NCBI GenBank assembly: GCA_964017045.1
Contig: OZ024809.1
Location: 682,001 to 746,000 of the forward strand
DNA length: 64,000 nucleotides
Direction of reading: 5' to 3'
Source: Omphiscola glabra
Lineage: Eukaryota; Mollusca; Gastropoda; Lymnaeidae
Shown here: positions 8,001 to 44,620 of the stretch, in pieces
Numbering within the stretch: the first letter of the stretch is position 1
Layout of the letters: each line of letters starts with the position of its first letter
Position numbers and translations under genes: made by a program
Notes under the pieces: generated by a model
The model's database searches: none
The model's input: the letters and a program-made list of their open reading frames with translations, nothing else
Told to the model about the DNA's origin: nothing

Positions 8001-11000
8001 AACATTGGCCAGCTAGCTTCTAACATTGGCCAACTAACTTCTAACATTGGCCAACTAACTTCTAACATTGGCCAGCTAGCTTCTAACATTGGCCGATGAT
8101 GTGGCAGGGGCAATTGATCAGTAATCTGCCAGTTGATTATCTGTACAACCCTACTGGGTATGCAGTTACCTGACAGTCAGGTCTGTACAACCCTAATGGG
8201 TTCACATTTCTCTTACCTGACAGCCAGGTCTGTACAACCCTACTGGGTACAGTTACCTGACAGCCGGGTCTGTACAACCCTACTGGGTACACCTTTACCT
8301 GACAGCCAGGTTTGTACAACCCTACTGGGTACAGTCACCTGACAGCCAGGTCTGTACAACCCTACTGGGTACAGTTACCTGACAGCCAGGTCTGTACAAC
8401 CCTACTGGGTACACAGTTACCTGACAGCCAGGTCTGTACAACCCTACTGGGTACACAGTTACCTGACAGCCAGGTGTGTACAACCCTACTGGGTACAGTC
8501 ACCTGACAGCCAGGTCTGTACAACCCTACTGGGTACAATTACCTGACAGCCAGATCTGTACAACCCTACTGGGTACACAGCTACCTGACAGCCAGATCTC
8601 TACAACTCTACTGGGTACACAGTTACCTGACAGCCACCTCTAATATAGAAACAACAGCTGAGAACTCCATGGACTGGATGTTACGCAGTCTATGGGTCAG
8701 CTCCTCCAAGAACTGGTTGGTGTCAGTCTGACTGGCGGTTGTGGAGCTCTTCTTTGTGATGATGAGGTCTTCTGACATTTCTAGACTCTGTGTTAGTAGA
8801 AACAACAAGGACATATTGATATTTTGATCAGCTGATCATGCACCAATACAATACTTAGAAAAAAACAAATAACCATTTCTGAAACATTAATTTTTCTATC
8901 ATTATATGGATAAAATCCAAATCTCCTTTGGCTAGAAAATAATGACCTTGTGTTTATTCAACACACATTTACCCAACCCACCATACAACCAATACAACCA
9001 TTTGGTAGCTGTATTATCCTTGTTTATGGCTCCTGACAACCAAACTACATTACACACAACTGCTCATGCTTACATGTAGTTACGTCTTTGGAGAGGGTTT
9101 ACAACAAAACTTGGGCAGGTGACAACGGGTATATTACCATATTTTTGAGTACATAAGACGTGTCTTATATAAAGTTTAACATACCCCGCACCCAGGGTGC
9201 GTCTTATATATGGGTATGTCTTATGTAAAATATGTTTGACATAAATTGTCAAAAGCCCTGTCTTATATATGGGTACGTCTTATGTAAAATATGTTTGACA
9301 TAAATCGTCAAAAGCCCAGTCTTATATATGGGTACGTCTTATGTAAAATATGTTTGACATAAATCGTCAAAAGCCCTGTCTTATATATGGGTGGGTCTTA
9401 TAATTAGGTGTGTCTTACACATTAAGTATTTTTTAACACAAACGAACGGTACAGTGTGTGATAATAAAGGGCGATTATTGCAGTCGATATTCACGTTTCA
9501 CGATTTTCCTTCCTAGTTGTAAAAACAATTCTGTAAGTGTTCGGTAATTATCACGTGTACCAATCCAATGCTGGCCACTTCAAGTTTCAAATCTTTTCAT
9601 TTCAATGTTTTGTATATCAACGAAGCCGCCTTTACATCTAGCGTTTATTGTTTCTAGAATCTAAATATAGGTACTCAACCCATCCGCTATTGGCACACCA
9701 TGTACTCAACCCATCCGCTATTGGCCCGGTGGCAGATAAGAATAAACATTAGTCGTTGCCGCCCTGTCTTGGACAATTCTTTGATCGATTGGTAAACTAA
9801 AAATGGTAACGAAGCATTGTTTACATCCGACGGGTGATGAAACATTGGACACATTTTCATTATGATAAAGAAAAATAATCCACTGGATATAACTTTCTCA
9901 GTGCGGCAGATGTTTAGGCTGCGTGGGTCTTATGTAATTTTTGTTTGCACAAATCGTCAAAACCAGCGTCTTATATATGAGTGCGTCTTATGTAAAATAT
10001 TTTTTATACAAATCATCAAAACCTGCATCTTAAATAGGGGTGAATCTTATATATGGGAGCATCTTATATATGGGAGCATCTTATATGTGTGAAAATATGG
10101 TATTTGGCATGTGTTTTTACCTACCTTGATGATGGGGACAAAATCTGGCAAGCTGGACCGCAGATAAGAGTAATGCCTGCGAGTGTGCTCCTGAAATAAC
10201 GGAACCATGGTGGGGGTGATGGCGGCAGCATTAAACACTAGGACCAGGACTGTGATGTCTGACCTCATTTTAAGGAATGTTCTTTTAAGCTCAAAAGCAA
10301 TCAATACTCAATGATAAGTAAATAGAAGGCAAGTTTCTTATGATCTGAAAACACACTTCCCTAACACATCATGATCTGAAAACACACTTCCCTAACACAT
10401 CATGATCTGAAAACACACTTCCCTAACACATCATGATCTGAAAACACACTTCCCTAACACATCATGATCTGAAAACACACTTCCCTAACACATCATGATC
10501 TGAAAACACACTTCCCTAACACATCATGATCTGAAAACACACTTCCCTAACACATCATAATGGGAATGCACATAAGATGTTTAAGTAACACATTTCATTT
10601 CTTTTTATCATCACAACTTTGAACAATAGAAATCTAAAGATGTTGTTGGAAATATTATTTTAAAAAAATCTTAACCAGGGATCAACACATCAAATTACAC
10701 CAAGGACATCATGGAGACAATGTCCATGGTAATTGCCTCAATGCACCTACAGATATCATGATATTCAATTAGAGACACCATTCACATTGGGGACACCATT
10801 CCCATTGGGGACACCTTTCCCATTGGGGACACCATTCACATTGGGGACACCATTCACATTGGGGACACCAGTCACATTGGGGATACCAGTCACATTGGGG
10901 ACACCATTCACATTGGGGACACCATTCACATTGGGGACATCATTCACATTGGGGACACCATTCACATTGGGGACACCATTCACATTGGGCACACCAGTCA

Positions 11001-14000: not shown

Positions 14001-17000
14001 CCAGCGGTCTCAAGATTATCTAAAACATGGGATAATAATCTGAGAACGGTGCATGATGATAAGTTCTTGGATAACTTAGGTGAAGATTTGCAGGTCTCAC
14101 AAAAATATAAAAAGCTTGAGTGCTTTACATTTGTCTACACAGTTATTTGTCAACAACAGTTGGTGATAGTAAAGTAAGAGACAAAGTTAAGTCTGTGGCA
14201 GTGGTTCAGTAAACGAATACCAGACCAGACCTACCGGTGTTCTTGTCAGTGAGTCAACATCAGCTTATTCCGGCGGGAATGATATTGCTGTAGGGGGGGT
14301 GATATTACTGGGGAGGGGGGGGCTGATATTACTTTGGTTGGATGATACTACTGTAGGGAGCTGATATTACTGAAGGGGGGCCGATAGTGCAATGGGGGGT
14401 GGAGCTGATGTTACTGAAGGGAGGCTGATATTACTGAAGAGGGGCTGATATTACTGTAGGGGCTGATATTATGTATTGGCCTACTAACTTCTAACTTTGG
14501 TCAATGATGTAGCAGGGGCAATTGAGTAATCTGCCAGTTCATTGTCGGTACAACCTTACTGGGTACACAGTAACCTGACAGATCAACAAAGGCTTCTTGC
14601 GGACATGTACATATCCATAAATGGTCACATAAGAACAAAATGACATACCTAAAAATTCATCCTCAAGGCCGTGGATGAAGGCACCACATGCCCCAATATT
14701 CAGGAGATTGACAGAGTCGGGGTCAACGTCCTCTTTTGGAGCATCATCTGCCCACTTCTGACCAGTTGACCATTCCCCTGACACATAGTTGTCTCTGGCT
14801 CTCTCGTGAGCTGATCTTTTTCTCTGGAATTGAAGTACAAAACATTCTTTGTATAAATCAATCTTTGTACAAGTTAATCTTTGAACAAGTCAATCTTTGT
14901 GCAGGTCAATCTTCAAATAAGTCATCTTCATATCAGTCAATCTTTATTTAAGTCAATCTTTGTATAAGTCAATAAAAAAAATCAAATAACACAACAGGAA
15001 AAATATCATGGAAACAGCTGATCTCTGAAGGCTGATGATTGTGTGTTCTCATGGACACAACAAGCAGTGATCTCATGGACACAACAAGTAGTGATCTCAT
15101 GGACACAACAAGTAGTGATCTCATGGACACAACAAGTAGTGATCTCATGGACACAACAAGTCGTGATCTCATGGACACAACACGTAGTGATCTCATGGAC
15201 ACAACAAGTAGTGATCTCATGGACACAACAAGTAGTGATCTCATGGACACAACAAGAAGTGATCTCATGTACACAACACGTAGTGGTCTCATGGACACAT
15301 CAAGTAGTGATCTCATGGACACAACAAGTCATGATCTTATGGACACAACAAGAAGTGATCTCATGGACACAACACGTAGTGGTCTCATGGACACATCAAG
15401 TAGTGATCTCATGGACACAACAAGTAGTGATCTCATGGACACAACAAGTAGTGATCTCATGAACACAAGTAGTGATCTCATGGACACAACAAGTCGTGAT
15501 CTCATAGACACATCAAGTCGTGATCTCATGGACACAACACGTAGTGATCTCATGGACACAACAAGTAGCGATCTCATGGACACAACAAGTCATGATCTCA
15601 TGGACACAACAAGTAGCGATCTCATCGACACAACAAGTCGTGATCTCATAGACACATCAAGTCATGATCTCATGGACACAACAAGTAGCGATCTCATGGA
15701 CACAACAAGTCGTGATCTCGTAGACACATCAAGTTGTGATCTCATGGACACAACACGTAGTGATCTTCCATCTCCACAAACACCTGCCTTACCACCATTT
15801 CCACACATTCAACATTGTACAGATATGTGCCAAGATATTGTACAGATATGTGCCAAGATATTTTACAGATACGTACCAAGACTTCGGGTTCTAGTCGACT
15901 TAACTGCCTAACAAGCTCTTATAGGAGAATCCACTCTAATGGACAAAAGGATCCACCATAGGGGACAAGATTATTCACTATATGGGACAACAGGATCCAC
16001 TATATGTGACAAGATGATCTACCATAGGTCAAAAGAAAAGAGGATCTACAATAGAGGACAAGACAATCCACCATAAGGGACAAGAGGATCCACCTTAGGA
16101 GACAAGATAATCCACCACAAAATAGCCGAATACTGTTGAAATGGATATCAAAATTGTAAAAAAAAAAAAAAAAAAAATTCTTGATGACAAGGTGACAAAA
16201 AAATTAAGTCCAAAATTACTTCCTAACTTATAGGAGAAGACAAAGGTTATAATCCTTCATGAGAAGGCAAAGGTTATAATCCTTCATGAGAAGATAACAG
16301 TTATAATCCTTCATGAGAAGGCAACAGTTATAATCCTTCATGAGAAGACAAAGGTTATAATCCTTCATGAGAAGGCAAAAGTTATAATCCTTCATGAGAA
16401 GGCAACAGTTATAATCCTTCATGAGAAGACAAAGGTTATAATCCTTCATGAGAAGACAACAGTTATAATCCTTCATGAGAAGGCAACAGTTATAATCCTT
16501 CATGAGAAGACAAAGGTTATAATCCTTCATGAGAAGACAAAGGTTATAATCCTTCATGAGAAGGCAACAGTTATAATCCTTCATGAGAAGACAAAGGTTA
16601 TAATCCTTCATGAGAAGACAACAGTTATAATCCTTCATGAGAAGACAAGGGTTATAATCCTTCATGAGAAAGCAACAGTTATAATCCTTCATGAGAAGAC
16701 AAAGGTTATAATCCTTCATGAGAAGACAATAGTTATAATCCTTCATGAGAAGGCAACAGTTATAATCCTTCATGAGAAGACAAAGGTTATAATCCTTCAT
16801 GAGAAGGCAAAGGTTATAATCCTTCATGAGATGACAACAGTTATAATCCTTCATGAGAAGACAAAGGTTATAATCCTTCATGAGAAGGCAACAGTTATAA
16901 TCCTTCATGAGAAGACAAAGGTTATAATCCTTCATGAGAAGACAACAGTTATAATCCTTCATGAGAAGGCAACAGTTATAATCCTTCATGAGAAGACAAA

Positions 17001-20000
17001 GGTTATAATCCTTCATGAGAAGACAAAGGTTATAATCCTTCATGAGAAGGCAACAGTTATAATCCTTCATGAGAAGACAACAGTTATAATCCTTCATGAG
17101 AAGGCAACAGTTATAATCCTTCATGAGAAGGCAACAGTTATAATCCTTCATGAGAAGACAAAGGTTATAATCCTTCATGAGAAGACAACAGTTATAATCC
17201 TTCATGAGAAGGCAACAGTTATAATCCTTCATGAGAAGACAAAGGTTATAATCCTTCATGAGAAGACAAAGGTTATAATCCTTCATGAGAAGACAACAGT
17301 AATAATCCTTCATGAGAAGACAAAGGTTATAATCCTTCATGAGAAGGCAACAGTTATAATCCTTCATGAGAAGACAAAGGTAATAATCCTTCATGAGAAG
17401 ACAAAGGTTATAATCCTTCATGAGAAGGCAACAGTTATAATCCTTCATGAGAAGACAAAGGTTATAATCCTTCATGAGAAGACAACAGTTATAATCCTTC
17501 ATGAGAAGACAAGGGTTATAATCCTTCATGAGAAGGCAACAGTTATAATCCTTCATGAGAAGACAAAGGTTATAATCCTTCATAGAAGACAACAGTTATA
17601 ATCCTTCATGAGAAGGCAACAGTTATAATCCTTCATGAGAAGACAAAGGTAATAATCCTTCATGAGAAGACAAAGGTTATAATCCTTCATGAGAAGGCAA
17701 CAGTTATAATCCTTCATGAGAAGACAAAGGTTATAATCCTTCATGAGAAGACAACAGTTATAATCCTTCATGAGAAGACAAGGGTTATAATCCTTCATGA
17801 GAAGGCAACAGTTATAATCCTTCATGAGAAGACAAAGGTTATAATCCTTCATGAGAAGACAACAGTTATAATCCTTCATGAGAAGGCAACAGTTATAATC
17901 CTTCATGAGAAGACAAAGGTTATAATCCTTCATGAGAAGACAAAGGTTATAATCCTTCATGAGAAGACAACAGTAATAATCCTTCATGAGAAGACAAAGG
18001 TTATAATCCTTCATGAGAAGGCAACAGTTATAATCCTTCATGAGAAGACAAAGGTAATAATCCTTCATGAGAAGACAAAGGTTATAATCCTTCATGAGAA
18101 GGCAACAGTTATAATCCTTCATGAGAAGACAAAGGTTATAATCCTTCATGAGAAGACAACAGTTATAATCCTTCATGAGAAGACAAGGGTTATAATCCTT
18201 CATGAGAAGGCAACAGTTATAATCCTTCATGAGAAGACAAAGGTTATAATCCTTCATAGAAGACAACAGTTATAATCCTTCATGAGAAGGCAACAGTTAT
18301 AATCCTTCATGAGAAGACAAAGGTTATAATCCTTCATGAGAAGGCAAAAGTTATAATCCTTCATGAGAAGGCAACAGCTATAATCCTTCATGAGAAGACA
18401 AAGGTTATAATCCTTCATGAGAAGACAACAGTTATAATCCTTCATGAGAAGGCAACAGTTATAATCCTTCATGAGAAGACAAAGGTTATAATCCTTCATG
18501 AGAAGACAAAGGTTATAATCCTTCATGAGAAGGCAACAGTTATAATCCTTCATGAGAAGACAAAGGTTATAATCCTTCATGAGAAGACAACAGTTATAAT
18601 CCTTCATGAGAAGACAAGGGTTATAATCCTTCATGAGAAGGCAACAGTTAAAATCCTTCATGAGAAGACAAAGGTTATAATCCTTCATGAGAAGACAACA
18701 GTTATAATCCTTCATGAGAAGGCAACAGTTATAATCCTTCATGAGAAGACAAAGGTTATAATCCTTCATGAGAAGGCAAAGGTTATAATCCTTCATGAGA
18801 AGGCAACAGTTATAATCCTTCATGAGAAGACAAAGGTTATAATCCTTCATGAGAAGGCAACAGTTATAATCCTTCATGAGAAGACAAAGGTTATAAGCCT
18901 TCATGAGAAGGCAACAGTTATAATCCTTCATGAGAAGACAACAGTTATAATCCTTCATGAGAAGACAAAGGTTATAATCCTTCATGAGAAGGCAACAGTT
19001 ATAATCCTTCATGAGAAGGCAACAGTTATAATCCTTCATGAGAAGGCAACAGTTATAATCCTTCATGAGAAGGCAACAGTTATAATCCTTCATGAGAAGA
19101 CAACAGTTATAATCCTTCATAAGAAGGCAACAGTTATAATCCTTCATAAGAAGACAACAGTTATAATCATTCATGAGAAGACAACAGTTATAATCCTTCA
19201 TGAGAAGACAACAGTTATAATCCTTCATGAGAACTAAATAGTTGAATTTCCAATTGAGTTGTCATAAGGTTAAACAGATGAGACTCTGCTCTGTCAATGT
19301 TCTTTTAATTCTATCTTGATTCATTTGGTAGCAAGGCCTTCAAGTTCAACTCACCCTCAGTTGAGACATAATCTTCTTGTCCAGGGTCTGCTCCAGAAAC
19401 TTTGGGCTCACAAGATGAAGAGACCCCTGAAAACAGACAAGAAAGTTCAAACAAATGAAATTGGAGCAGCGAGCTCGTTTATTTAAAATGCCATAGCAAT
19501 CATACATGATACAGGCTGTACCAACAATAAACAAAACATGTGCTGTACCAACCATATTAAAGACATGGGCCGTACCAACCATTAACATAACAAGGGCTGT
19601 ACCAACCTTTAACATAACAAGGGCTGTACCAACCATTAACAAAACAAGGGCTGTACCAACCATTAACATAACAAGGGCTGTACCAACCATTAACATAACA
19701 AGGGCTGTACCAACCATTAACAAAGAAAGGCCTGTACCAACCATTAACATAACAAGGGCTGTACCAACCATTAACATAACAAGGGCTGTACCAAACTTTA
19801 ACATAACAAGGACTTTACCAACCATTAACATAACAAGGGCTGTACCAACCATTAACATAACAAGGGCTGTACCAACCATTAACATAACAAGGGCTGTACA
19901 TTACATAGCCCATACCTATCAATAACTGGCAATCTTTTTGACTGAGATGTCTGTTACCATGTCCGTACCTACCAATAACTGGCAAGCTTTGACCTTGACT

Positions 20001-23000
20001 TTGACTGAAATGTCTGTTACCATGCTGCAAATTTTAGCAAAGCCATCATCCAGCAATCTCAATTCTTCCATGGAATCTGTGACAGGCACAAAGCTGGAAA
20101 AAATGGCAAGTTAATCATGTCTGAAATTATGGGAAATGGATGTTAAATAATAATATGATTAGCAATAACAGTAATATCACCCCCCTACAGTCAATCAAAC
20201 CATTACAACAAGGAAGTCAATCAAACCATTACAACAAGGAAGTCAATCAAACCATTACAACAAGGAAGTCAATCAAACCATTACAACAAGGAAGTCAATC
20301 AAACCACTACAACAAGGAAGTCAATCAAACCATTACACCAAGGAAGTCAATCAAACCATTACAACAAGGAAGTCAATCAAACCATTACAACAAGGAAGTC
20401 AATCAAACCATTACAACAAGGAAGTCAATCAAACCACTACAACAAGGAAGTCAATCAAACCATTACAACAAGGAAGTCAATCAAACCATTACAACAAGGA
20501 AGTCAATCAAACAATTACAACAAGGAGGTCAATCAAACCATTACAACAAGGAAGTAAATCAAACCATTACAACAAGGAAGTCAATCAAACCATTACAACA
20601 AGGAAGTCAATCAAACAACTACAACAAGGAAGTCAATCAAACCACTACAACAAGGAAGTCAATCAAACAATTACATCAAGGAAGTCAATCAAACCCCTAC
20701 AACAAGGAGGTCAATTAAACCATTACAACAAGGAAGTCAATCAAACCATTACAACAAGGAAGTCAATCAAACCACTACAACAAGGAAGTCAATCAAACAA
20801 TTACATCAAGGAAGTCAATCAAACCCCTACAACAAGGAGGTCAATTAAACCATTACAACAAGGAAGTCAATCAAACCATTACAACAAGGAAGTCAATCAA
20901 ACCATTACAACAAGGAAGTCAATCAAACCATTACAACAAGGAAGTCAATCAAACCATTACAACAAGGAAGTCAATCAAACCACTACAACAAGGAAGTCAA
21001 TCAAACCATTACAACAAGGAAGTCAATCAAACCATTACAACAAGGAAGTCAATCAAACCATTACATCAAGGAAGTCAATCAAACCATTACAACAAGGAAG
21101 TCAATCAAACCATTACAACAAGGAAGTCAATCAAACCCCTACAACAAGGAGGTCAATCAAACCATTACAACAAGGAAGTCAATCAAACCATTACAACAAG
21201 GTAGTCAATCAAACCATTACAACAAGGAAGTCAATCAAACCATTACAACAAGGAAGTCAATCAAACCATTACAACAAGGAAATCAATCAAACCATTACAA
21301 CAAGGAAGTCAATCAAACCATTACAACAAGGAAGTCAATCAAACCATTACAACAAGGAAGTCAATCAAACCATTACAACAAGGAAGTCAATCAAACCATT
21401 ACAACAAGGAAGTCAATCAAACCATTACAACAAGGAAGTCAATCAAACCATTACAACAAGGAAGTCAATCAAACCACTACAACAAGGAAGTCAATCAAAC
21501 CATTACAACAAGGAAATCAATCAAACCATTACAACAAGGAAGTCAATCGCACCATTACTACAACTGAAGTCAATCAAACCATTACAACAAGGAAGTCAAT
21601 CAAACCACTACAACAGGGAAGTCAATCAAACAATTACAACAAGGAAGTCAATCAAACCACTACAACAAGGAAGTCAATCAAACCATTACAACAAGGAAGT
21701 CAATCAAACCATTACACCAAGGAAGTCAATCAAACCATTACAACAAGGAAGTCAATCAAACCATTACAACAAGGAAGTCAATCAAACCATTACAACAAGG
21801 AAGTCAATCAAACCATTACAACAAGGAAGTCAATCAAACCATTACAACAAGGAAGTCAATCAAACCATTACAACAAGGAAGTCAATCAAACCACTACAAC
21901 AAGGAAGTCAATCAAACCATAACAACAAGGAAGTCAATCAAACCATTACACCAAGGAAGTCAATCAAACCATTACAACAAGGAAGTAAATCAAACCATTA
22001 CAACAAGGAAGTCAATCAAACCACTACAACAAGGAAGTCAATCAAACAATTACAACAAGGAAATCAATCAAACCATTACAACAAGGACGTCAATCAATTC
22101 ACTACAACAAGGAAGTCAATCAAACCACTACAACAAGGAAGTCAATCAAACCATTACAACAAGGAAGTCAATCAAACCATTACAACAAGGAAGTCAATCA
22201 AACCACTACAACAAGGAAGTCAATCAAACCACTACAACAAGGAAGTCAGTCAAACCACTAAAACAAGGAAGTCAATGAAACAACTAATAACAAGGGAGTC
22301 AATCAAATCACTGCAACAAGGAAGTCAATGAAACCACTACAACAAGGGAGTCAATCAAACAACTACAACAAGGAAGTCAATCAAACAACTACAACAAGGA
22401 AGTCAATCAAACCACTACAACAAGGGAGTCATTGAAACCACTACAACAAGGAAGTCAATCACACCACTATAACAAGGGAGTCAATTAAACACCTACAACA
22501 AGGAAGTCAATCAAACCACTACAACAAGGAAGTCAATCAAACAATTACAACAAGGGAGTCAATCAAACCACTACAACAAGGGAGTAAATCAAAGCACTAC
22601 AACAAGGGAGTCAATCAAACCACTACAACAAGGAAGTCAATCAAACCACTACTACAAGGGAGTCAATCAAACCACTACAACAAGGGAGTCAATCAAACCA
22701 CTGTAACAAGGGAGTCAATCAAATCACTACAACAAAGAAGTCAATCAAACCACTACAACAAGGGAGTCAATCAAACCACTACACAAGGAAGTCAATCAAA
22801 CCACTACAACAAGGGAGTCAATCATACCACTACAACAAGGGAGTCAATCAAACCACTACAACAAGGAAATAAATCAAACCACTACAACAAGGAAGTCAAT
22901 CAAACCACTACAACAAGGGAGTCAATCAAACCATTACACCAAGGAAGTCAATCAAACCATTACAACAAGGAAGTCAATCAAACCATTACAACAAGGAAGT

Positions 23001-26000
23001 CAATCAAACCATTACAACAAGGAAGTCAATCAAACCACTACAACAAGGAAGTCAATCAAACCATTACAACAAGGAAGTCAATCAAACCATTACAACAAGG
23101 AAGTCAATCAAACAATTACAACAAGGAGGTCAATCAAACCATTACAACAAGGAAGTAAATCAAACCATTACAACAAGGAAGTCAATCAAACCATTACAAC
23201 AAGGAAGTCAATCAAACAACTACAACAAGGAAGTCAATCAAACCACTACAACAAGGAAGTCAATCAAACAATTACATCAAGGAAGTCAATCAAACCCCTA
23301 CAACAAGGAGGTCAATTAAACCATTACAACAAGGAAGTCAATCAAACCATTACACCAAGGAAGTCAATCAAACCATTACAACAAGGAAGTCAATCAAACC
23401 ATTACAACAAGGAAGTCAATCAAACCATTACAACAAGGAAGTCAATCAAACCACTACAACAAGGAAGTCAATCAAACCATTACAACAAGGAAGTCAATCA
23501 AACCATTACAACAAGGAAGTCAATCAAACAATTACAACAAGGAGGTCAATCAAACCATTACAACAAGGAAGTAAATCAAACCATTACAACAAGGAAGTCA
23601 ATCAAACCATTACAACAAGGAAGTCAATCAAACAACTACAACAAGGAAGTCAATCAAACCACTACAACAAGGAAGTCAATCAAACAATTACATCAAGGAA
23701 GTCAATCAAACCCCTACAACAAAAAGGTCAATTAAACCATTACAACAAGGAAGTCAATCAAACCATTACAACAAGGAAGTCAATCAAACCACTACAACAA
23801 GGAAGTCAATCAAACAATTACATCAAGGAAGTCAATCAAACCCCTACAACAAGGAGGTCAATTAAACCATTACAACAAGGAAGTCAATCAAACCATTACA
23901 ACAAGGAAGTCAATCAAACCATTACAACAAGGAAGTCAATCAAACCATTACAACAAGGAAGTCAATCAAACCATTACAACAAGGAAGTCAATCAAACCAC
24001 TACAACAAGGAAGTCAATCAAACCATTACAACAAGGAAGTCAATCAAACCATTACAACAAGGAAGTCAATCAAACCATTACATCAAGGAAGTCAATCAAA
24101 CCATTACAACAAGGAAGTCAATCAAACCATTACAACAAGGAAGTCAATCAAACCCCTACAACAAGGAGGTCAATCAAACCATTACAACAAGGAAGTCAAT
24201 CAAACCATTACAACAAGGTAGTCAATCAAACCATTACAACAAGGAAGTCAATCAAACCATTACAACAAGGAAGTCAATCAAACCATTACAACAAGGAAAT
24301 CAATCAAACCATTACAACAAGGAAGTCAATCAAACCATTACAACAAGGAAGTCAATCAAACCATTACAACAAGGAAGTCAATCAAACCATTACAACAAGG
24401 AAGTCAATCAAACCATTACAACAAGGAAGTCAATCAAACCATTACAACAAGGAAGTCAATCAAACCATTACAACAAGGAAGTCAATCAAACCACTACAAC
24501 AAGGAAGTCAATCAAACCATTACAACAAGGAAATCAATCAAACCATTACAACAAGGAAGTCAATCGCACCATTACTACAACTGAAGTCAATCAAACCATT
24601 ACAACAAGGAAGTCAATCAAACCACTACAACAGGGAAGTCAATCAAACAATTACAACAAGGAAGTCAATCAAACCACTACAACAAGGAAGTCAATCAAAC
24701 CATTACAACAAGGAAGTCAATCAAACCATTACACCAAGGAAGTCAATCAAACCATTACAACAAGGAAGTCAATCAAACCATTACAACAAGGAAGTCAATC
24801 AAACCATTACAACAAGGAAGTCAATCAAACCATTACAACAAGGAAGTCAATCAAACCATTACAACAAGGAAGTCAATCAAACCATTACAACAAGGAAGTC
24901 AATCAAACCACTACAACAAGGAAGTCAATCAAACCATAACAACAAGGAAGTCAATCAAACCATTACACCAAGGAAGTCAATCAAACCATTACAACAAGGA
25001 AGTAAATCAAACCATTACAACAAGGAAGTCAATCAAACCACTACAACAAGGAAGTCAATCAAACAATTACAACAAGGAAATCAATCAAACCATTACAACA
25101 AGGACGTCAATCAATTCACTACAACAAGGAAGTCAATCAAACCACTACAACAAGGAAGTCAATCAAACCATTACAACAAGGAAGTCAATCAAACCATTAC
25201 AACAAGGAAGTCAATCAAACCACTACAACAAGGAAGTCAATCAAACCACTACAACAAGGAAGTCAGTCAAACCACTAAAACAAGGAAGTCAATGAAACAA
25301 CTAATAACAAGGGAGTCAATCAAATCACTGCAACAAGGAAGTCAATGAAACCACTACAACAAGGGAGTCAATCAAACAACTACAACAAGGAAGTCAATCA
25401 AACAACTACAACAAGGAAGTCAATCAAACCACTACAACAAGGGAGTCATTGAAACCACTACAACAAGGAAGTCAATCACACCACTATAACAAGGGAGTCA
25501 ATTAAACACCTACAACAAGGAAGTCAATCAAACCACTACAACAAGGAAGTCAATCAAACAATTACAACAAGGGAGTCAATCAAACCACTACAACAAGGGA
25601 GTAAATCAAAGCACTACAACAAGGGAGTCAATCAAACCACTACAACAAGGAAGTCAATCAAACCACTACTACAAGGGAGTCAATCAAACCACTACAACAA
25701 GGGAGTCAATCAAACCACTGTAACAAGGGAGTCAATCAAATCACTACAACAAAGAAGTCAATCAAACCACTACAACAAGGGAGTCAATCAAACCACTACA
25801 CAAGGAAGTCAATCAAACCACTACAACAAGGGAGTCAATCATACCACTACAACAAGGGAGTCAATCAAACCACTACAACAAGGAAATAAATCAAACCACT
25901 ACAACAAGGAAGTCAATCAAACCACTACAACAAGGGAGTCAATCATACCACTACAACAAGGAAGTCAATCAAACCATTACAACAAGGAAATAAATCAAAC

Positions 26001-29000
26001 CACTACAACAAGGAAGTCAATCAAACCATTACAACAAGGAAATAAATCAAACCACTACAACAAGGAAGTCAATCAAACCACTACAACAAGGGAGTCAATC
26101 AAACCACTACAACAAGGAAATAAATCAAACCACTACAACAAGGAAGTCAATCAAACCACTACAACAAGGAAGTCAATCAAACCACTACAACAAGGAAGTC
26201 AATCAAACCATTACAACAAGGGAATAAATCAAACCACTACAACAAGGAAATAAATCAAACCACTACAACAAGGGAGTCAATCAAACCATTACAACAAGGA
26301 AATAAATCAAACCACTACAACAAGGAAGTCAATCAATCCATTACAACAAGGAAGTCAATCAAACCATTACAACAAGGAAGTCAATCAAACCATTACAACA
26401 AGGAAGTCAATCAAACCATTACAACAAGGAAGTCAATCAAACCATTACAACAAGGGAATAAATCAAACCATTACAACAAGGAAGTCAATCAAACCACTAC
26501 AACAAGGGAATAAATCAAACCATTACAACAAGGAAGTCAATCAAACCACTACAACAAGGGAATAAATCAAACCATTACAACAAGGAAATAAATCAAACCA
26601 CTACAACAAGGAAGTCAATCAAACCATTACAACAAGGAAGTCAATCAAACCACTACAACAAGGAAGTCAATCAAACCACTACAACAAGGGAATAAATCAA
26701 ACCATTACAACAAGGAAATAAATCAAACCACTACAACAAGGAAGTCAATCAAACCATTACAACAAGGAAGTCAATCAAACCATTACAACAAGGAAGTCAA
26801 TCAAACCATTACAACAAGGAAGTCAATCAAACCACTACAACAAGGAAGTCAATCAAACCATTACAACAAGGAAGTCAATCAAACCATTACAACAAGGAAA
26901 TAAATCAAACCACTACAACAAGGAAGTCAATCAAACCACTACAACAAGGAAGTCAATCAAACCATTACAACAAGGAAGTCAATCAAACCATTACAACAAG
27001 GAAGTCAATCAAACCATTACAACAAGGAAGTCAATCAAACCATTACAACAAGGAAGTCAATCAAACCACTACAACAAGGAAGTCAATCAAACCATTACAA
27101 CAAGGAAGTCAATCAAACCATTACAACAAGGAAATAAATCAAACCACTACAACAAGGAAGTCAATCAAACCACTACAACAAGGGAGTCAATCAAACCACT
27201 ACAACAAGGAAGTCAATCAAACCATTACAACAAGGAAGTCAATCAAACCATTACAACAAGGAAGTCAATCAAACCATTACAACAAGGAAGTCAATCAAAC
27301 CATTACAACAAGGAAGTCAATCAAACCATTACAACAAGGAAGTCAATCAAACCACTACAACAAGGAAGTCAATCAAACCATTACAACAAGGAAGTCAATC
27401 AAACCATTACAACAAGGAAATAAATCAAACCACTACAACAAGGAAGTCAATCAAACCACTACAACAAGGGAGTCAATCAAACCACTACAACAAGGAAGTC
27501 AATCAAACCACTACAACAAGGAAGTCAATCAAACCACTACAACAAGGGAGTCAATCAAATCATTACAACAAGGGTGTCAATCAAACCACTACAACAAGGG
27601 AGTCAATGAAACAACTACAACAAGGGAGTCAATCAAACCACTACAACAAGGGAGTCAATCAAACCACTACAACAAGGGAGTCAATCAAACCACTACAACA
27701 AGGGAGTCAATCAAACCACTACAACAAGGGAGTCAATCAAACCACTACAACAAGGGAGTCAATCAAACCACTACAACAAGGAAGTCAATCAAACCACTAC
27801 AACAAAGGAGTCAATCAAACCACTACAACAAGGGAGTCATTGAAACAACTATTTTGGTTTCATTCTTCATTGTTAAAATATAAACATATTATATTTTTAC
27901 CTTAATTATTTTGTTAACAAAAATTAATCAAAGATGAGACCAGGCAGAAAAAAGATGAGACCAGATACAAAAAAGTTGAGACCAGACATACAAAAGATGA
28001 GAAATATGAGACCAGAGACACCAAAGAATGAGAAATATAAGACCAGACACACAAAGATGAGTCCTGACACACATAAAATGAGACCAGACAAAAAAGTAAG
28101 ACCAGACACAAAAAAGATGAGACCAGATGCACAGAAGTTGAGACTTGACACACAGAAGATGAGAACAGACTCACAAAAGATGAGACCAGACACACACCAC
28201 TGACATAGCAATAGCATACAAATATGTACACCTTAAGAAGTCTACAAAATGTGAATTCCTAAATAATGTATTTAGGGTACCACGACATTTGAAAATGAAC
28301 AACTTAAAAACTCAGATTTATTATATAATTACAATATAAGTGAAGGTAGAAAAAGTAGTTCCGCGACTTTTGGGGGTGGAGGCAGAACTCTTACCTTTCT
28401 GGGTACAGGTGACTCAAGACCCAAATAAGTTGAATCGCTGCAAGTCGGACACCCTCATAGTCATCTGAGAGGGCTGAGCAGGCTTGGTGATATACTGATA
28501 GGCTCAAATATTGGCCACTGTTGTGAAGTGTGAGCTGAAAGGAAGAGAGACTATGTACTCAGTGTACAATGATTGGCCACTGTTGTGAAGTGTGAGCTGA
28601 AAGAATGAGAGACTATGTACTCAGTGTACAAAGATTGGCCACTGTTGTGAAGTGTGAGCTGAAAGAATGAGAGACTATGTACTCAGTGTACAAAGATTGG
28701 CCACTGTTGTGAAGTGTGAGCTGAAAGGAAGAGAGACTATGTACTCAGTGTACAAAGATTGGCCACTGTTGTGAAGTGTGAGCTGAAAGAATGAGAGACT
28801 ATGTACTCAGTGTACAAAGATTGGCCACTGTTGTGAAGTGTGAGCTGAAAGGAAGAGATACTATGTACTCAGTGTACAAAGATTGGCCACTGTTGTGAAG
28901 TGTGAGCTGAAAGAATGAGAGACTATGTACTCAGTGTACAAAGATTGGCCACTGTTGTGAAGTGTGAGCTGAAAGAATGAGAGACTATGTACTCAGTGTA

Positions 29001-32000
29001 CAAAGATTGGCCACTGTTGTGAAGTGTGAGCTGAAAGGATGAGAGACTATGTACTCAGTGTACAAAGATTGGCCACTGTTGTGAAGTGTGAGCTGAAAGA
29101 ATGAGAGACTATGTACTCAGTGTACAATGATTGGCCACTGTTGTGAAGTGTGAGCTGAAAGAATGAGAGACTATGTACTCAGTGTACAATGATTGGCCAC
29201 TGTTGTGAAGTGTGAGCTGAAAGAATGAGAGACTATGTACTCAGTGTACAATGATTGGCCACTGTTGTGAAGTGTGAGCTGAAAGAATGAGAGACTATGT
29301 ACTCAGTGTACAAAGATTGGCCACTGTTGTGAAGTGTGAGCTGAAAGGATGAGAGACTATGTACTCAGTGTACAAAGATTGGCCACTGTTGTGAAGTGTG
29401 AGCTGAAAGAATGAGAGACTATGTACTCAGTGTACAATGATTGGCCACTGTTGTGAATTGTGAGCTGAAAGAATGAGAGACTATGTACTCAGTGTACAAA
29501 GATTGGCCACTGTTGTGAATTGTGAACTGAAAGAATGAGAGACTATGTACTCAGTGTACAAAGATTGGCCACTGTTGTGAAGTGTGAGCTGAAAGGATGA
29601 GAGACTATGTACTCAGTGTACAAAGATTGGCCACTGTTGTGAAGTGTGAGCTGAAAGAATGAGAGACTATGTACTCAGTGTACAAAGATTGGCCACTGTT
29701 GTGAAGTGTGAGCTGAAAGAATGAGAGACTATGTACTCAGTGTACAAAGATTGGCCACTGTTGTGAATTGTGAGCTGAAAGAAAGAATGAGAGACTATGT
29801 ACTCAGTGTACAAAGATTGGCCACTGTTGTGAAGTGTGAGCTGAAAGAATGAGAGACTATGTACTCAGTGTACAAAGATTGGCCACTGTTGTGAAGTGTG
29901 AGCTGAAAGAATGAGAGACTATGTACTCAGTGTACAAAGATTGGCCACTGTTGTGAAGTGTGAGCTGAAAGAATGAGAGACTATGTACTCAGTGTACAAA
30001 GATTGGCCACTGTTGTGAAGTGTGAGCTGAAAGAATGAGAGACTATGTACTCAGTGTACAAAGATTGGCCACTGTTGTGAATTGTGAGCTGAAAGAATGA
30101 GAGACTATGTACTCAGTGTACAAAGATTGGCCACTGTTGTGAAGTGTGAGCTGAAAGAATGAGAGACTATGTACTCAGTGTACAAAGATTGGCCACTGTT
30201 GTGAAGTGTGAGCTGAAAGAATGAGAGACTATGTACTCAGTGTACAAAGATTGGCCACTGTTGTGAAGTGTGAGCTGAAAGAATGAGAGACTATGTACTC
30301 AGTGTACAAAGATTGGCCACTGTTGTGAAGTGTGAGCTGAAAGAATGAGAGACTATGTACTCAGTGTACAAAGATTGGCCACTGTTGTGAAGTGTGAGCT
30401 GAAAGAATGAGAGACTATGTACTCAGTGTACAAAGATTGGCCACTGTTGTGAATTGTGAGCTGAAAGAATGAGAGACTATGTACTCAGTGTACAAAGATT
30501 GGCCACTGTTGTGAAGTGTGAGCTGAAAGAATGAGAGACTATGTACTCAGTGTACAAAGATTGGCCACTGTTGTGAAGTGTGAGCTGAAAGAATGAGAGA
30601 CTATGTACTCAGTGTACAAAGATTGGCCACTGTTGTGAAGTGTGAGCTGAAAGAATGAGAGACTATGTACTCAGTGTACAAAGATTGGCCACTGTTGTGA
30701 AGTGTGAGCTGAAAGAATGAGAGACTATGTACTCAGTGTACAAAGATTGGCCACTGTTGTGAAGTGTGAGCTGAAAGAATGAGAGACTATGTACTCAGTG
30801 TACAATGATTGGCCACTGTTGTGAAGTGTGAGCTGAAAGAATGAGAGACTATGTACTCAGTGTACAAAGATTGGCCACTGTTGTGAAGTGTGAGCTGAAA
30901 GAATGAGAGACTATGTACTCAGTGTACAAAGATTGGCCACTGTTGTGAAGTGTGAGCTGAAAGGAAGAGAGACTATGTACTCAGTGTACAAAGATTGGCC
31001 ACTGTTGTGAAGTGTGAGCTGAAAGAATGAGAGACTATGTACTCAGTGTACAAAGATTGGCCACTGTTGTGAAGTGTGAGCTGAAAGAATGAGAGACTAT
31101 GTACTCAGTGTACAAAGATTGGCCACTGTTGTGAAGTGTGAGCTGAAAGGAAGAGAGACTATGTACTCAGTGTACAAAGATTGGCCACTGTTGTGAAGTG
31201 TGAGCTGAAAGAATGAGAGACTATGTACTCAGTGTACAAAGATTGGCCACTGTTGTGAAGTGTGAGCTGAAAGAATGAGAGACTATGTACTCAGTGTACA
31301 AAGATTGGCCACTGTTGTGAAGTGTGAGCTGAAAGGAAGAGAGACTATGTACTCAGTGTACAAAGATTGGCCACTGTTGTGAAGTGTGAGCTGAAAGAAT
31401 GAGAGACTATGTACTCAGTGTACAAAGATTGGCCACTGTTGTGAAGTGTGAGCTGAAAGAATGAGAGACTATGTACTCAGTGTACAAAGATTGGCCACTG
31501 TTGTGAAGTGTGAGCTGAAAGGAAGAGAGACTATGTACTCAGTGTACAAAGATTGGCCACTGTTGTGAAGTGTGAGCTGAAAGGAAGAGAGACTATGTAC
31601 TCAGTGTACACTCAATATAGAGGAGCAAATAAACATATCATTCAGTTTCACTAACAGAAACTAGAGGAAATATTTACAATAAGAAGAACAGTACCATTAG
31701 AGAAAATGTACATTATAATTATTGTTGCTATAACAAAGCCAATAAGAATAAGAAAAACTGTGATAATATTTAATGAGAGGTCAGCTGCTTCTGTTGTTGT
31801 TGGGGCACCTAAAGAATGACCCACAATGCACAGCTTTAGGTGTCTGGGGTTAAAGGGTCCTATTATGTCTGTTGGGGCACCTAAAGAATGACCACAATGC
31901 ACAGCTTTAGGTGTCTGGGGTTAAAGGGTCCTATTATGTCTGTTGGGGCACCTAAAGAATGACCACGATGCACAGCTTTAGGTGTCTGGGGTTAAAGGGT

Positions 32001-35000
32001 CCTATTATGTCTGTTGGGGCACCTAAAGAATGACCCACAATGCACAGCTTTAGGTGTCTGGGGTTAAAGGGTCCTATTATGTCTGTTGGGGCACCTAAAG
32101 AATGACCCACAATGCACAGCTTTAGGTGTCTGGGGTTAAAGGGTCCTATTATGTCTGTTGGGGCACCTAAAGAATGACCCACAATGCACAGCTTTAGGTG
32201 TCTGGGGTTAAAGGGTCCTATTATGTCTGTTGGGGCACCTAAAGAATGACCCACAATGCACAGCTTTAGGTGTCTGGGGTTAAAGGGTTCTATTATTGTT
32301 GTTGGGGCACCTAAAGAATGACCACGATGCACAGCTTTAGGTGTCTGGGGTTAAAGGGTTCTATTATTGTTGTTGGGGCACCTAAAGAATGACCATGATG
32401 CACAGCTTTAGGTGTCTGGGGTTAAAGGGTTCTATTATTGTTGTTGGGGCACCTAAAGAATGACCACGATGCACAGCTTTAGGTGTCTGGGGTTAAAGGG
32501 TCCTATTGTTGTTGGGTCACCTAAAGAATGACCACGATGCACAGCTTTAGGTGTCTGGGGTTAAAGGGTCCTATTATTGTTGTTGGGGCACCTAAAGAAT
32601 GACCACGATGCACAGCGTTAGGTGTCTGGGGTTAAAGGGTTCTATTATTGTTGTTGGGTCACCTAAAGAATGACCACGATGCACAGCGTTAGGTGTCTGG
32701 GGTTAAAAGGTTCTATTATTGTTGTTGGGGCACCTAAAGAATGACCACGATGCACAGCTTTAGGTGTCTGGGGTTAAAGGGTCCTATTGTTGTTGTTGGG
32801 GCACCTAAAGAATGACCATGATGCACAGCTTTAGGTGTCTGGGGTTAAAGGGTTCTATTATTGTTGTTGGGGCACCTAAAGAATGACCACGATGCACAGC
32901 TTTAGGTGTCTGGGGTTAAAGGGTCCTATTGTTGTTGGGTCACCTAAAGAATGACCACGATGCACAGCTTTAGGTGTCTGGGGTTAAAGGGTCCTATTGT
33001 TGTTGTTGGGGCACCTAAAGAATGACCACGATGCACAGCTTTAGGTGTCTGGGGTTAAAGGGTTCTATTATTGTTGTTGGGTCACCTAAAGAATGACCAC
33101 GATGCACAGCTTTAGGTGTCTGGGGTTAAAGGGTTCTATTATGTCTGTTGGGGCACCTAAAGAATGACCACGATGCACAGCTTTAGGTGTCTGGGGTTAA
33201 AGGGTTCTATTATTGTTGTTGGGGCACCTAAAGAATGACCACGATGCACAGCTTTAGGTGTCTGGGGTTAAATGGTTCTATTATGTCTGTTGGGGCACCT
33301 AAAGAATGACCACGATGCACAGCTTTAGGTGTCTGGGGTTAAAGGGTTCTATTATGTCTGTTGGGTCACCTAAAGAATGACCACGATGCACAGCTTTAGG
33401 TGTCTGGGGTTAAAGGGTCCTATTGTTGTTGGGTCACCTAAAGAATGACTACTATGCACAGCTTTAGGTGTCTGGGGTTAAAGGGTCCTATTGTTGTTGG
33501 GTCACCTAAAGAATGACTACTATGCACAGCTTTAGGTGTCTGGGGTTAAAGGGTCCTATTGTTGTTGGGTCACCTAAAGAATGACCACGATGCACAGCTT
33601 TAGGTGTCTGGGGTTAAAGGGTCCTATTGTTGTTGGGTCACCTAAAGAATGACTACTATGCACAGCTTTAGGTGTCTGGGGTTAAAGGGTCCTATTGTTG
33701 TTGGGTCACCTAAAGAATGACCCACAATGCACACTTTTAGGTGTCTGGAGGTTAAAGGGTCCTATTGTTGCTGTTGGGTCACCTAAAGAATGACCCACAA
33801 TGCACAGTTTTAGATTTCTTTGGAGATAGATAGAATTTATGTTTTTCTTCATGTAATAAAAATAAAATTATTTAATATGTTAATAATATATTAAAATTAT
33901 GATGGTCGTTACACAGAAAGTTTGAACATCAAGAAACGCCTTTAGTGTAAAGTATGAACATGAACATTTACCATGGCTTCAAAAGCACTGCATCTAACCC
34001 GAGGGTCCTCATCACTTATGTATCTGGTTAGCACTTCTTGAATTGAAACTGGCCAGTCTGGAGATGCTGGTGTGTCCTTCCGCTGCTGTTCACATGAAGC
34101 GAGACAGCCGATCAGCTGTAAGCAGCTTTTGCGTACTTGGTGGTCGCTGTCAGACACATTCTTTAGAAAAATATGTTTCTACCCATTATAAACTTATTAA
34201 AGCAATGAATTAAAAATTGACTAGTTGATGTTGTAAAGCACATTAGAAACATTTATGAGAGATATAATAAATGTTATTTTTTTTTTTATTTTTTTTTTTT
34301 CTAACATTTATAAGAGATATTATTATATTTCTCATAAATGTTAGAAACATTTATGAGAGATATAATAAATGTTATTTTTTGCAAGTTCACACATTTTTAT
34401 ATAATTTTGTTTATCATACAATCATTTAGAGCTTTAACATTGATTTTTTCCGGATAAATGGATGACAGGTGATACTTCAGAAAAGAAATATTTTACCTTA
34501 AAAGCCGCTCGCATGAACCGCTGGATATAAGGGCTGCTTGGAGAGAGCATCTGACTAACAGATCGAGCTGTGGTGAAAATCTGACCAAGGGCTTTGTGAG
34601 AAGCTGGAAATAACAAGGAAGAATCCCGTTTTAAAAAAATGTTGAATTGACTTCTAAAATAAAGTAAAGTATGATTGGGAATTAAACAAATATTTATTCT
34701 CAAAATTCACATCAACAAGACACAAATTACATTAACAAATTCACATCAACAAGACACCAATTACATTAAAAAATTCACATCAACAAGACACCAATTACAT
34801 TAACAAATTCACATCAACAAGACACCAATTACATTAACAAATTCACATCAACAAGACACCAATTACATTAACAAATTCACATCAACAAGATACGAATTAC
34901 TTTAACAAATATTATTTCAAATCATTCAAAAAATTTCATTTTTCATTGAGCTCAGTGGCCAGACAATTGTTAAGATCCAAAATTAAAAATATATTGACAA

Positions 35001-41529: not shown

Positions 41530-44500
41530 TTCTTCTTCTTCTTCTATATATTAAAGGCCCACGATCAATTTATTGATCATTATGGCTCCTATGAATGTAA
41601 ATGGGATTTGCAATGTCTCTGTGCCTGGTGTTGATGAGGATATTTCACTGGTTACAAGAGTAACTGTTTGAGGGTATCATGCACTAGGGGTTGGAAGGCC
41701 TGAGGCAATAGACGCAAATGAGTCAAGTGTTGTCGCCTCAACTGATCCTTTTGGAAGCTTGTTCCAGTCCCTGATTGTCTTTGGTAGGAATGAGAAGTTC
41801 CTATACTGGCTTCTCGCTGGTATGAGCCGGAACTGCCTGTCATAGCCTCGTCGATGTCTATGGGGGAGATGGACGAGTTTCTGTTTAATGCCAGAACAGT
41901 GCACTAGCCCATTATGTATTTTGTAAATCATGGAGAGCCTGGACTGTCGTCGTCGTTCCTCCAATAGTGACCAGCCCAGTGTTTCCAGCATGCTGCCAAC
42001 ACTAGAGGTATTTCTGTAGCGGTTCAGGACAAAACGTGCTGCCCGTCGCTGTACTGCCTCCAACCTGTCGATGCTCTTCTGAGTGAATGGGTCCCAGACC
42101 GAAGATGCATAATCTAAAAGCGGCCGGACAAAGGCTTTATAGGCTCTTTCTTTCACACCGGAGTTGCTGATCTTTAGATTACGCCTTAAGAACCCCAGGG
42201 TCTTGTTTGCCTGGTTGCACACATTAAATTGTTAATATGCTCGTCCCAGCGGACCTCTCTCTGAATGGTAACACCCAGGTACCTTACGGAGGAAACTGAC
42301 TCAAGCAAATGACCATGCAATTCATAGTGGTAGCGTAGAGGAGTACAACTTCTAGAGACTGACAGTGTCTGGCACTTGGCTGGATGAAATTCCATGTCCC
42401 AGCTCGCCTCCCACTCAGCTAACCGATTGAGATCCTCTTGTAGCTGGTCCTGGTCAGATCTGTTGGTGATCGTCCTGTACACGGCTGTGTCATCTGCGAA
42501 CAGTCTTGCGTGGGATGTCAATTTCTCGGGTAGGTCATTGATATATGCTAGGAACAAACAGGGGCCTAGCACCGAGCCCTGGGGTACCCCTGACTTAACA
42601 TTGACAAAGGACGAGCTTGCACCGTCCACCACTACTGCTTGACATCGGTTGTTGAGGAAGCTAGAGATTCATGTTATAGTAGTGCCTTGGATTCCATATC
42701 TCTGAAGTTTGTGTAGAAGCAAACTATGATTGACACGGTCAAAGGCCTTCGAGAAGTCCATCACCAGCACATCAGTTTGCTTGCTGTTTTCTAGATTTGT
42801 CATCAAGACTTCAACAAACTCAAGGAGCTGGGTCTCACATGATCTATTGACTCTGAAGCCATGCTGACACTCATTGAGTATATTTTTGCTTTCAAGATGC
42901 TTCATGACTGCGCTTACGATTATGTGCTCCAATAGTTTGCATACTATGCTGGTGAGGGATATCGGACGATAATTGGCAGGGTCAGAATGCTCCCCTTTCT
43001 TGTAGACTGGAGTGACATGGGCTGTTCTCCAGTCTGCTGGAACATTGCCAGAGCACAACGATGATTGGAAGAGGATTGTCAGTGCAGGAGCGATTTCTTT
43101 GGCCAATTCTTTGAGCACTCGTGGTTTTATACTGTCAGGACCACATGCTTTGTATGGGTTAATGGTTTTGAGGAGGGCAAGCACCCCCTGTCCTGAAATC
43201 TGAATATCTTCCATGACGGGGTAGGCTGTGTTCATCATGTTGGTTTTTAGGTGGAACTCAGCCTCTGAGTACTCTCTGCCGTCACCAAAGACCGACTGGA
43301 ACTGCCGATTGAGTATATCAGCCTGTGTTTTTGGGTCAGATGACAAATGGCCATTCCATCTCAAGGGGGGAAACTCCAACGTTTGAGGACTTTTGGTGCT
43401 TCATATAGCTCCAGAAGCGCTTGTTCCTGACACCCTTGGTCGGAGTGTCTTCCTCTGAGAAAATGCCATTCAGGTAGTTCCAATACGATCTGCGCAGTTC
43501 GGCGGAGTCTCAGTACCTCCTCTCTCAGTTCAACGGAGCCATTTTTCTTCAATAGCTTGTATTGGCGGTCTCTCCTGTGGATTAGCCCACGAATTTCAGC
43601 CGTGACCCATGGCTGATTTATCTTAGGTTTGGTGGTCTTGTGTGGTATATATTTCTTCACTGCATCAGTGATAGTTGTCTTAAACTTCACCCACAGCTCT
43701 TCTGTTGTCGCTGTTCCCTGTATCGCCCGCATGCCTGAGCTCAGTTCTGTCGTTACAACTCTCAGGCCATCCCAGTCTGCCTTGGCATAAATAGGGATTT
43801 CTCGTATGACCTGCTTCTTTTTTAGTGTATTAACCTGAAATTCACAATATGGTATGCAGTGGTCTGAAATACCGGGGATGACCTCAACTTTTGGGATGAG
43901 ATGTGGACTATTGGTGAGGAGTAGGTCAAGAGGGTTTCCCCCCCTCGTTGGTTCTTTAACCAACTGTTCCAGACCATGGTTGTTAATCATCTCCATGAAG
44001 TCTGAGTGTAGGACAGGGTATGGTGACTTGGGCTTTAAGGCAGGAATCTGCCAGTTCCAACCAGGAAAGTTAAAATCCCCCCTATAAGGAGAAAAGCGTT
44101 CTTTGACTGTGTTGCTCTCTGAAGCGATAATTCGAGCCTCCTGAGGCTGGGTTCATCTGCTGCGTTGGGTCTGTAATAGGCACAAACATAAAGTGTGCGT
44201 CTACCCTTCAGTTTCACTTTCACCCACAGGAGCTCGCAGTCATCAACATCTAGTTCTGGAGCAGCGTGGCAGTCCAGGTTGTGATGGACAGCAACAAGTA
44301 CTCCTCCTCCTCTGTCTTTTCTGTCTCGCCGGAATAATATATAATTATCCGGTACAACCTCTGCGTGGGCTATGGAGGGATTCAGCCATGTTTCTGTACC
44401 CAGTATGATGTCAGGTTTTAGGCTGTTGATCAGGTTTGCTATCTCGACTCTCTTCCCGCTTGCAGACTGAAAGTTCACGTTCAATATGCGCAATGGTCTG

Positions 44501-44534
44501 TGTTTCCATTTGTCCTGCTGACTGCAGCACATAG
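41530..44534 (-). mobile_element. Broken EN-RT LINE (CR1/Rex1/Jockey-like)
   Basis: Minus-strand non-LTR retrotransposon with an endonuclease domain (LKPDIILGTETWLNPS, then GDFNFPGWNW) and a reverse transcriptase (YKKGEHSDPANYRPISL, DFSKAFDRVNHSLL, SGVPQGSVLGP, FADD). A C-terminal region follows ([32 protein letters not shown]). The endonuclease frame shifts near 44080, another shift lies near 43490, a TGA replaces a Trp codon at 42669-42671, and a further shift lies near 42200. It starts inside the endonuclease with no ORF1, so it is 5'-truncated. The 3' end is GGGCCTTTAATATATA plus a GAA repeat. It is inactive. Confidence 0.9.
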
Positions 44535-44620
44535 GATTTTGTTACAGTCATATGAATTCAGAGTTGTTGCAGTCATATGAATTCAGAGTTGTTGCAGTCA
44601 TATGACCTCAGAGTTATAGT
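44535..44620. repeat. ~25-bp minisatellite, right part
   Basis: GAATTCAGAGTTGTTGCAGT with CATAT. Continuation of the array at 41400-41529, split by the LINE. Confidence 0.88.

Follow-up and report, generated by a model that had tools for sequence, protein, structure and literature searches.

Tandem duplications of exon/intron boundaries have been described under the name of mirages in the amphioxus gene Adh3 and in the globin genes BflGb6 and BflGb9 (PMC3087553), and a further study adds PGBD5 and cites troponin C as mirage genes (PMC3902484). In the relevant passages of both papers, reverse transcription PCR is said to suggest that the affected genes are regularly spliced. Here, we describe a duplicated boundary in INTS4, a gene on the minus strand of a 64,000-nucleotide stretch of contig OZ024809.1 (hereafter the window), in which the 3′ splice site of exon 5 is repeated 50 times in a 62-bp minisatellite. 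This array fits the structural definition of the lancelet mirages and is an extreme example of an already described kind. Our search of the open-access literature for boundary-duplication arrays in molluscs or in INTS4 found no report, and returned the lancelet papers only.

Tandem Repeats Finder (TRF) places the array at 28505–31610 (minus strand; coordinates are those of the window), with a period of 62, 50.0 copies and 98% matches, and its copies stand head to tail like those of a minisatellite, as in mirages. Reading the units one by one gave 50 copies of the intron 4/exon 5 acceptor junction: 49 upstream units (48 of 62 nt and one of 66 nt) and a final copy that continues into exon 5. The typical unit consists of CTGAG, a candidate branch site with its A 24 nt ahead of the exon position, followed by a pyrimidine tract, CAG and CTCACACTTCACAACAGTGGCCAAT, which corresponds to nucleotides 1–25 of exon 5 and deviates by one or two bases in 5 of the 50 copies. 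The match between unit and exon extends to base 30 of exon 5, with one substitution in most units, and intron and exon sequence from across a real boundary is thereby held within the unit, again as in mirages. The first-pass annotation of this DNA had described about 50 repeats of this splice site in a 62-bp minisatellite and had allowed that an alignment might show a unit lacking the exon 5 start; the description proved accurate, and the aligned unit contains that start. The intronic half of the last unit, whose acceptor is probably the one used, lies at 28535–28568 (minus strand) and has CTGAG, whose A lies 24 nt upstream, an uninterrupted pyrimidine tract and CAG. Comparison of both array ends suggests a seed made up of 34 intronic and 28 exonic nucleotides, its breakpoints sharing a TG match, which agrees with the earlier proposal of an origin by duplication of a splice junction. 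The 48 ordinary 62-nt upstream units are of nine kinds, distinguished at six variable positions, and the variants are interspersed.

We take the last copy to be the real junction, since a 17-exon model that passes through it matches human INTS4 with no gap between exons 4 and 5; the first-pass annotation had likewise named the exon-proximal copy as the true one. The exons, which run from 38711 down to 1719 on the minus strand, join to give 861 residues that align with residues 1–863 of the human protein (7cun_D, E = 2.2e-200). Exon 4 (33972–34160, minus strand), with the donor CATG/GTAAAT, must join the last acceptor. Exon 5 (28395–28534, minus strand) is 140 nt long, its initial 28–30 nt being part of the last unit of the array, and it ends in the donor AAG/GTAAGA, which ranks second among the 17 donors of the gene on a matrix built from INTS4 itself. 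It stands between an intron 4 of 5.4 kb and an intron 5 of 8.3 kb, and a short exon between such long introns is a setting suited to exon definition. The remaining 3′ part of INTS4 is located beyond exon 17; a look for motifs over the next 20 kb gave no clear further exon.

Each of the 49 upstream acceptors (decoys) was joined in silico to exon 4, and all of them led to an early stop codon, which is TAG for 48 decoys and TGA for the one nearest to exon 5. The earlier expectation of a frameshift followed by TAG thus holds for nearly all of the array, but not for the unit directly upstream of the real junction. Among the 50 acceptors, the INTS4 frame stays open through the final one alone, and all 49 decoy-induced stops sit at least 112 nt ahead of the end of the extended exon (shorter than 500 nt for five of the 49 decoys). 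According to the 50-nt rule, stops that far upstream of an exon end usually trigger decay, and by this rule decoy-spliced transcripts would be decay targets. On an acceptor matrix made from the 15 other INTS4 acceptors, a small sample, the true site scores 8.28, 37 decoys score 7.43, one scores 9.0 and five score from 4.3 to 7.07, and six more are the same as the true site across the scored bases. Intron 4 also holds a second minisatellite, wholly intronic, of 71 bp and 28.6 copies (TRF; 31795–33813, minus strand), whose AGs score up to 9.42 as acceptors. Since seven of the 49 decoys are not weaker than the true site, and the AGs of the neighbouring array reach such a value, acceptor strength alone does not pick out the correct site.

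We compared the arrays of the whole gene with a null model of blind seeding, in which every array was reduced to a single unit and given a random position. From the 118 TRF rows of the window, 40 array rows in the INTS4 span (1719–38711) or within 500 bases of it were retained; they were thinned by hand, some overlap each other, and they occupy 23.0 of 37.0 kb. Two of these 40, the exon 5 array and a donor array at exon 13, straddle a junction, with 1.6 expected (P(≥2) = 0.49), and none is wholly exonic, with 5.7 expected (P(0) = 0.002). Junction duplications are therefore tolerated like intronic ones, and exonic ones are missing, in line with the suggestion of the first-pass annotation that the exon 5 array is a tolerated expansion. 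Targeted seeding at junctions was considered and dropped, as the blind rate accounts for the count.

Donors of INTS4 are duplicated as well. At exon 13 (8627–8787, minus strand), a 12-copy array of the donor GGCTGTCAG/GTAACT and its variants occupies 8140–8636 (minus strand), with a spacing of 40–47 nt between copies; its periods in the TRF output are 82 and 122, and it was given a period of 41 in the null test. Its first copy is the real donor, and the 11 decoys, in register with CAG/GT, would all meet TAA immediately. The end of exon 6 and its donor are present in two imperfect copies (19908–20023, minus strand, ends counted by hand), the first with GTAGGT and the second with ATAGGT; this duplication was excluded from the null test. 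About 107 bp, including part of the exon 13 donor-array unit, are common to introns 13 (8060–8210) and 8 (14475–14581) at 85% identity. A search of the genome (745 Mb in 37 contigs) found 12 matches, every one of them in intron 13 or intron 8 of INTS4, a pattern consistent with duplication within the gene rather than with a dispersed repeat. The arrays next to the donors at 13743, 13081 and 12638 (exons 9, 10 and 11) start 14–18 nt downstream of each, and it is possible that array edges are clustered just inside introns.

Junction arrays are also present at exons elsewhere in the genome. A protein kinase search, in which 129 of 908 candidates were scored, gave 143 exon-wise matches, 134 of which were inspected together with flanking sequence of about 600 or 1500 nt, six that were not retrieved and three outside the retrieved stretches being omitted. 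Among these 134, 13 rows with a direct repeat were listed, and reading them left seven junction arrays (six at donors and one at an acceptor) on five contigs; because a profile match need not stop where the exon does, seven of 134 is an approximate figure, and it applies to kinases only. In all seven, the unit holds coding sequence and a splice signal in register. The donor arrays are those of L050 (23 bp, 9.6 copies, GT kept in 8 of 9), L120 (28 bp, 17 copies, GTAAG kept in 17 of 17), L070 (17 bp, 8.2 copies, GT kept in 7 of 8) and L080 (52 bp, 7.6 copies), together with L079 (29 bp) and L118 (30 bp), which both have at least 21.7 copies and reach the end of the retrieved stretch; several copies in L118 read AGCAGCTATG, without GT. 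The acceptor array, at L081, has 3.5 copies of 69 bp, and AG is lost in its outermost copy. With the exon 13 donor array of INTS4, these cases show that donor and acceptor boundaries are both affected, as in mirages. Arrays with a score of at least 50 lying wholly within a kinase match were not found in the 134 matches. The junction array had been called unusual in the first-pass annotation, a view that does not survive the donor array and donor duplication in INTS4, the kinase arrays and the lancelet mirages.

Six of the 13 rows were dropped upon reading: the three rows at L100 are copies of whole exons at a distance of 5 kb, L039 shows no clear junction, no AG was seen where the edge of the L046 array lies, and at L119 the profile match extends through an intron. 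A row from a further listing, at L074, was also dropped, its array beginning downstream of the likely donor. A lower threshold added two rows, one of 15 bp and 1.9 copies that extends across an end of the L036 match and one of 23 bp and 2.0 copies that reaches the first base of L025. In L120 (1–1410), the kinase exon donor ACT/GTAAGT lies inside the 17-copy array, which makes it a clean case for the study of donor choice. L120 and L079, about 250 kb apart on contig C18, have similar kinase exons (..LGVVSYVL and ..IGVICYVL) with donor arrays at the same exon end, and the units differ.

We consider it probable that junction duplications are self-buffering and near-neutral, the exon-proximal site being chosen by exon definition. 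A tandem duplication of the 34-nt intron and 28-nt exon segment, about 62 bp with its 2-bp TG match, would have arisen across the intron 4/exon 5 junction and grown to 50 copies through ordinary minisatellite turnover. At any copy number, the copy next to the exon would still form an intact junction in its original context, and the remaining copies, exon fragments included, would turn into intron. The exon-proximal acceptor would then be selected by exon definition, in which the 140-nt exon 5 is recognised as one unit with the strong donor downstream, and any splicing to a decoy would result in a premature stop and probably in decay. This proposal suggests a reason why junction duplications are tolerated while within-exon duplications are missing. 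With 50 near-identical acceptors ahead of a single exon, INTS4 offers a natural counterpart of the classic experiments with duplicated splice sites, as the junction predicted at exon 5 depends on the rule of site choice (the first transcribed, the strongest or the nearest across the exon). In human data, long flanking introns are described as moving site choice toward the site nearest across the exon (PMC9225289, Carranza and others, in the part dealing with this effect). Some points weigh against our proposal. For human 3′ sites with long introns, the same part of that paper gives a reduced upstream preference and does not state a reversal, so that decoys may leak. In addition, 42 of the 49 decoys score below the true site, mostly by less than 1 bit, and site strength may help in the selection of the last acceptor. 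Finally, acceptor cases are rarer than donor cases (2 versus 8 including INTS4, binomial P = 0.055), a hint that acceptor arrays may fall short of full neutrality; in this tally, exon 5 of INTS4 was given beforehand instead of being sampled, and exon 6 has no more than two copies.

The last of these points would also suit a regulator based on acceptor competition, in which the 49 decoys divert transcripts to decay and the length of the array tunes the dose of INTS4. The position of all 49 decoy-induced stops, which makes the transcripts candidates for decay, and the strength of the decoys, near to that of the true site, are what such a regulator would need. However, INTS4 has about as many junction arrays as blind seeding predicts, and others stand at seven kinase exons on five contigs; this speaks more for a by-product than for a dedicated device, and we regard this regulator as unlikely. 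It is less likely still that, with junction minisatellites being frequent genome-wide, acceptor arrays serve as tunable decay switches and the length of the INTS4 allele sets the loss to decoys; if this were true, a hypervariable repeat would govern the dose of a subunit of Integrator, which acts in the processing of small nuclear RNA. The first-pass annotation had also raised the idea of a recursive-splicing device, in which the intron would be excised stepwise via the units, and the regular spacing of the acceptors speaks for it. A ratchet site requires AG followed by GT, but this is found at none of the 50 CAGs, 49 of which read AG/CT and one AG/TT. Furthermore, the GTs of the units score from −0.04 to −3.71, under 16 of the 17 INTS4 donors (1.97 to 11.38), although a donor score alone is no proof, as the accepted exon 11 donor has −1.96; the idea is scarcely credible. 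Units acting as micro-exons were rejected with the same reservation, the best unit GT reaching only −0.04.

An assembly artefact, with a true array of few copies or an inflated copy number, has to be considered as well, because long tandem arrays are difficult to assemble, and a lancelet mirage was apparently mis-assembled in a draft, according to a supplementary legend of PMC3087553. The interspersion of the nine kinds among 48 units argues against it, as does the finding that tandem arrays make up 12% of 245 kb sampled from other parts of the genome, and we hold such an artefact to be very improbable. Some introns originate from introner-type elements, and the unit might have come as a mobile element bearing a splice site. 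Such an element would be expected in many genes, but a 301-base query from the array end, run against the genome with very common words ignored, gave 21 matches that all lie inside the array (contig C17), and the exon half of the unit is native INTS4 coding sequence; an origin of this type is barely plausible.

Further features of the window lie outside these comparisons. A 26-bp minisatellite of 294 copies (20189–27846) occupies most of intron 5 of INTS4, and long open frames at 41680–44541 (minus strand) resemble, by eye, a retrotransposon lacking long terminal repeats, with reverse transcriptase. Rfam gave no matches at gathering scores, and a 28-base pattern sought in viral contigs was present in no stretch.

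With respect to known systems, NAGNAG and similar tandem acceptors are alternative 3′ sites competing for one exon. The INTS4 array likewise has several acceptors that compete for a single exon, but differs in its spacing of 62 nt, in the tract and branch-like site that each copy has of its own, in its 50 copies and in the last acceptor alone being frame-open. The host is a mollusc and not a lancelet, given that Haemocyan_bet_s (PF14830), a family that we take to be molluscan, has 32 matches in this genome, all on contig C9 at 37.05–37.41 Mb, and none in 14 control genomes. The cephalochordate host, which belongs to the reported distribution of mirages rather than to their structure, is thus absent here. 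The intron-gain model of Rogers, as cited in a passage of PMC3087553, also starts from a short tandem duplication with splice signals, but the INTS4 case lengthens an existing intron and makes no new one. The closest likeness is to the lancelet mirages, as characterized in the pertinent sections of PMC3087553 and PMC3902484: their minisatellite-like units combine intron and exon portions, either at acceptors or at donors, AG or GT is retained in many copies, and the range of 10–72 bp given for the Adh3 units covers the 62 bp of INTS4. The INTS4 array differs in having 50 copies, compared to 6 and 3 in two BflGb6 haplotypes (PMC3087553, same sections), and in its gene and mollusc host, and we do not claim common descent with the lancelet arrays. 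Hence, boundary duplication, which we found in the literature only for lancelets, is present at several exons of a mollusc.

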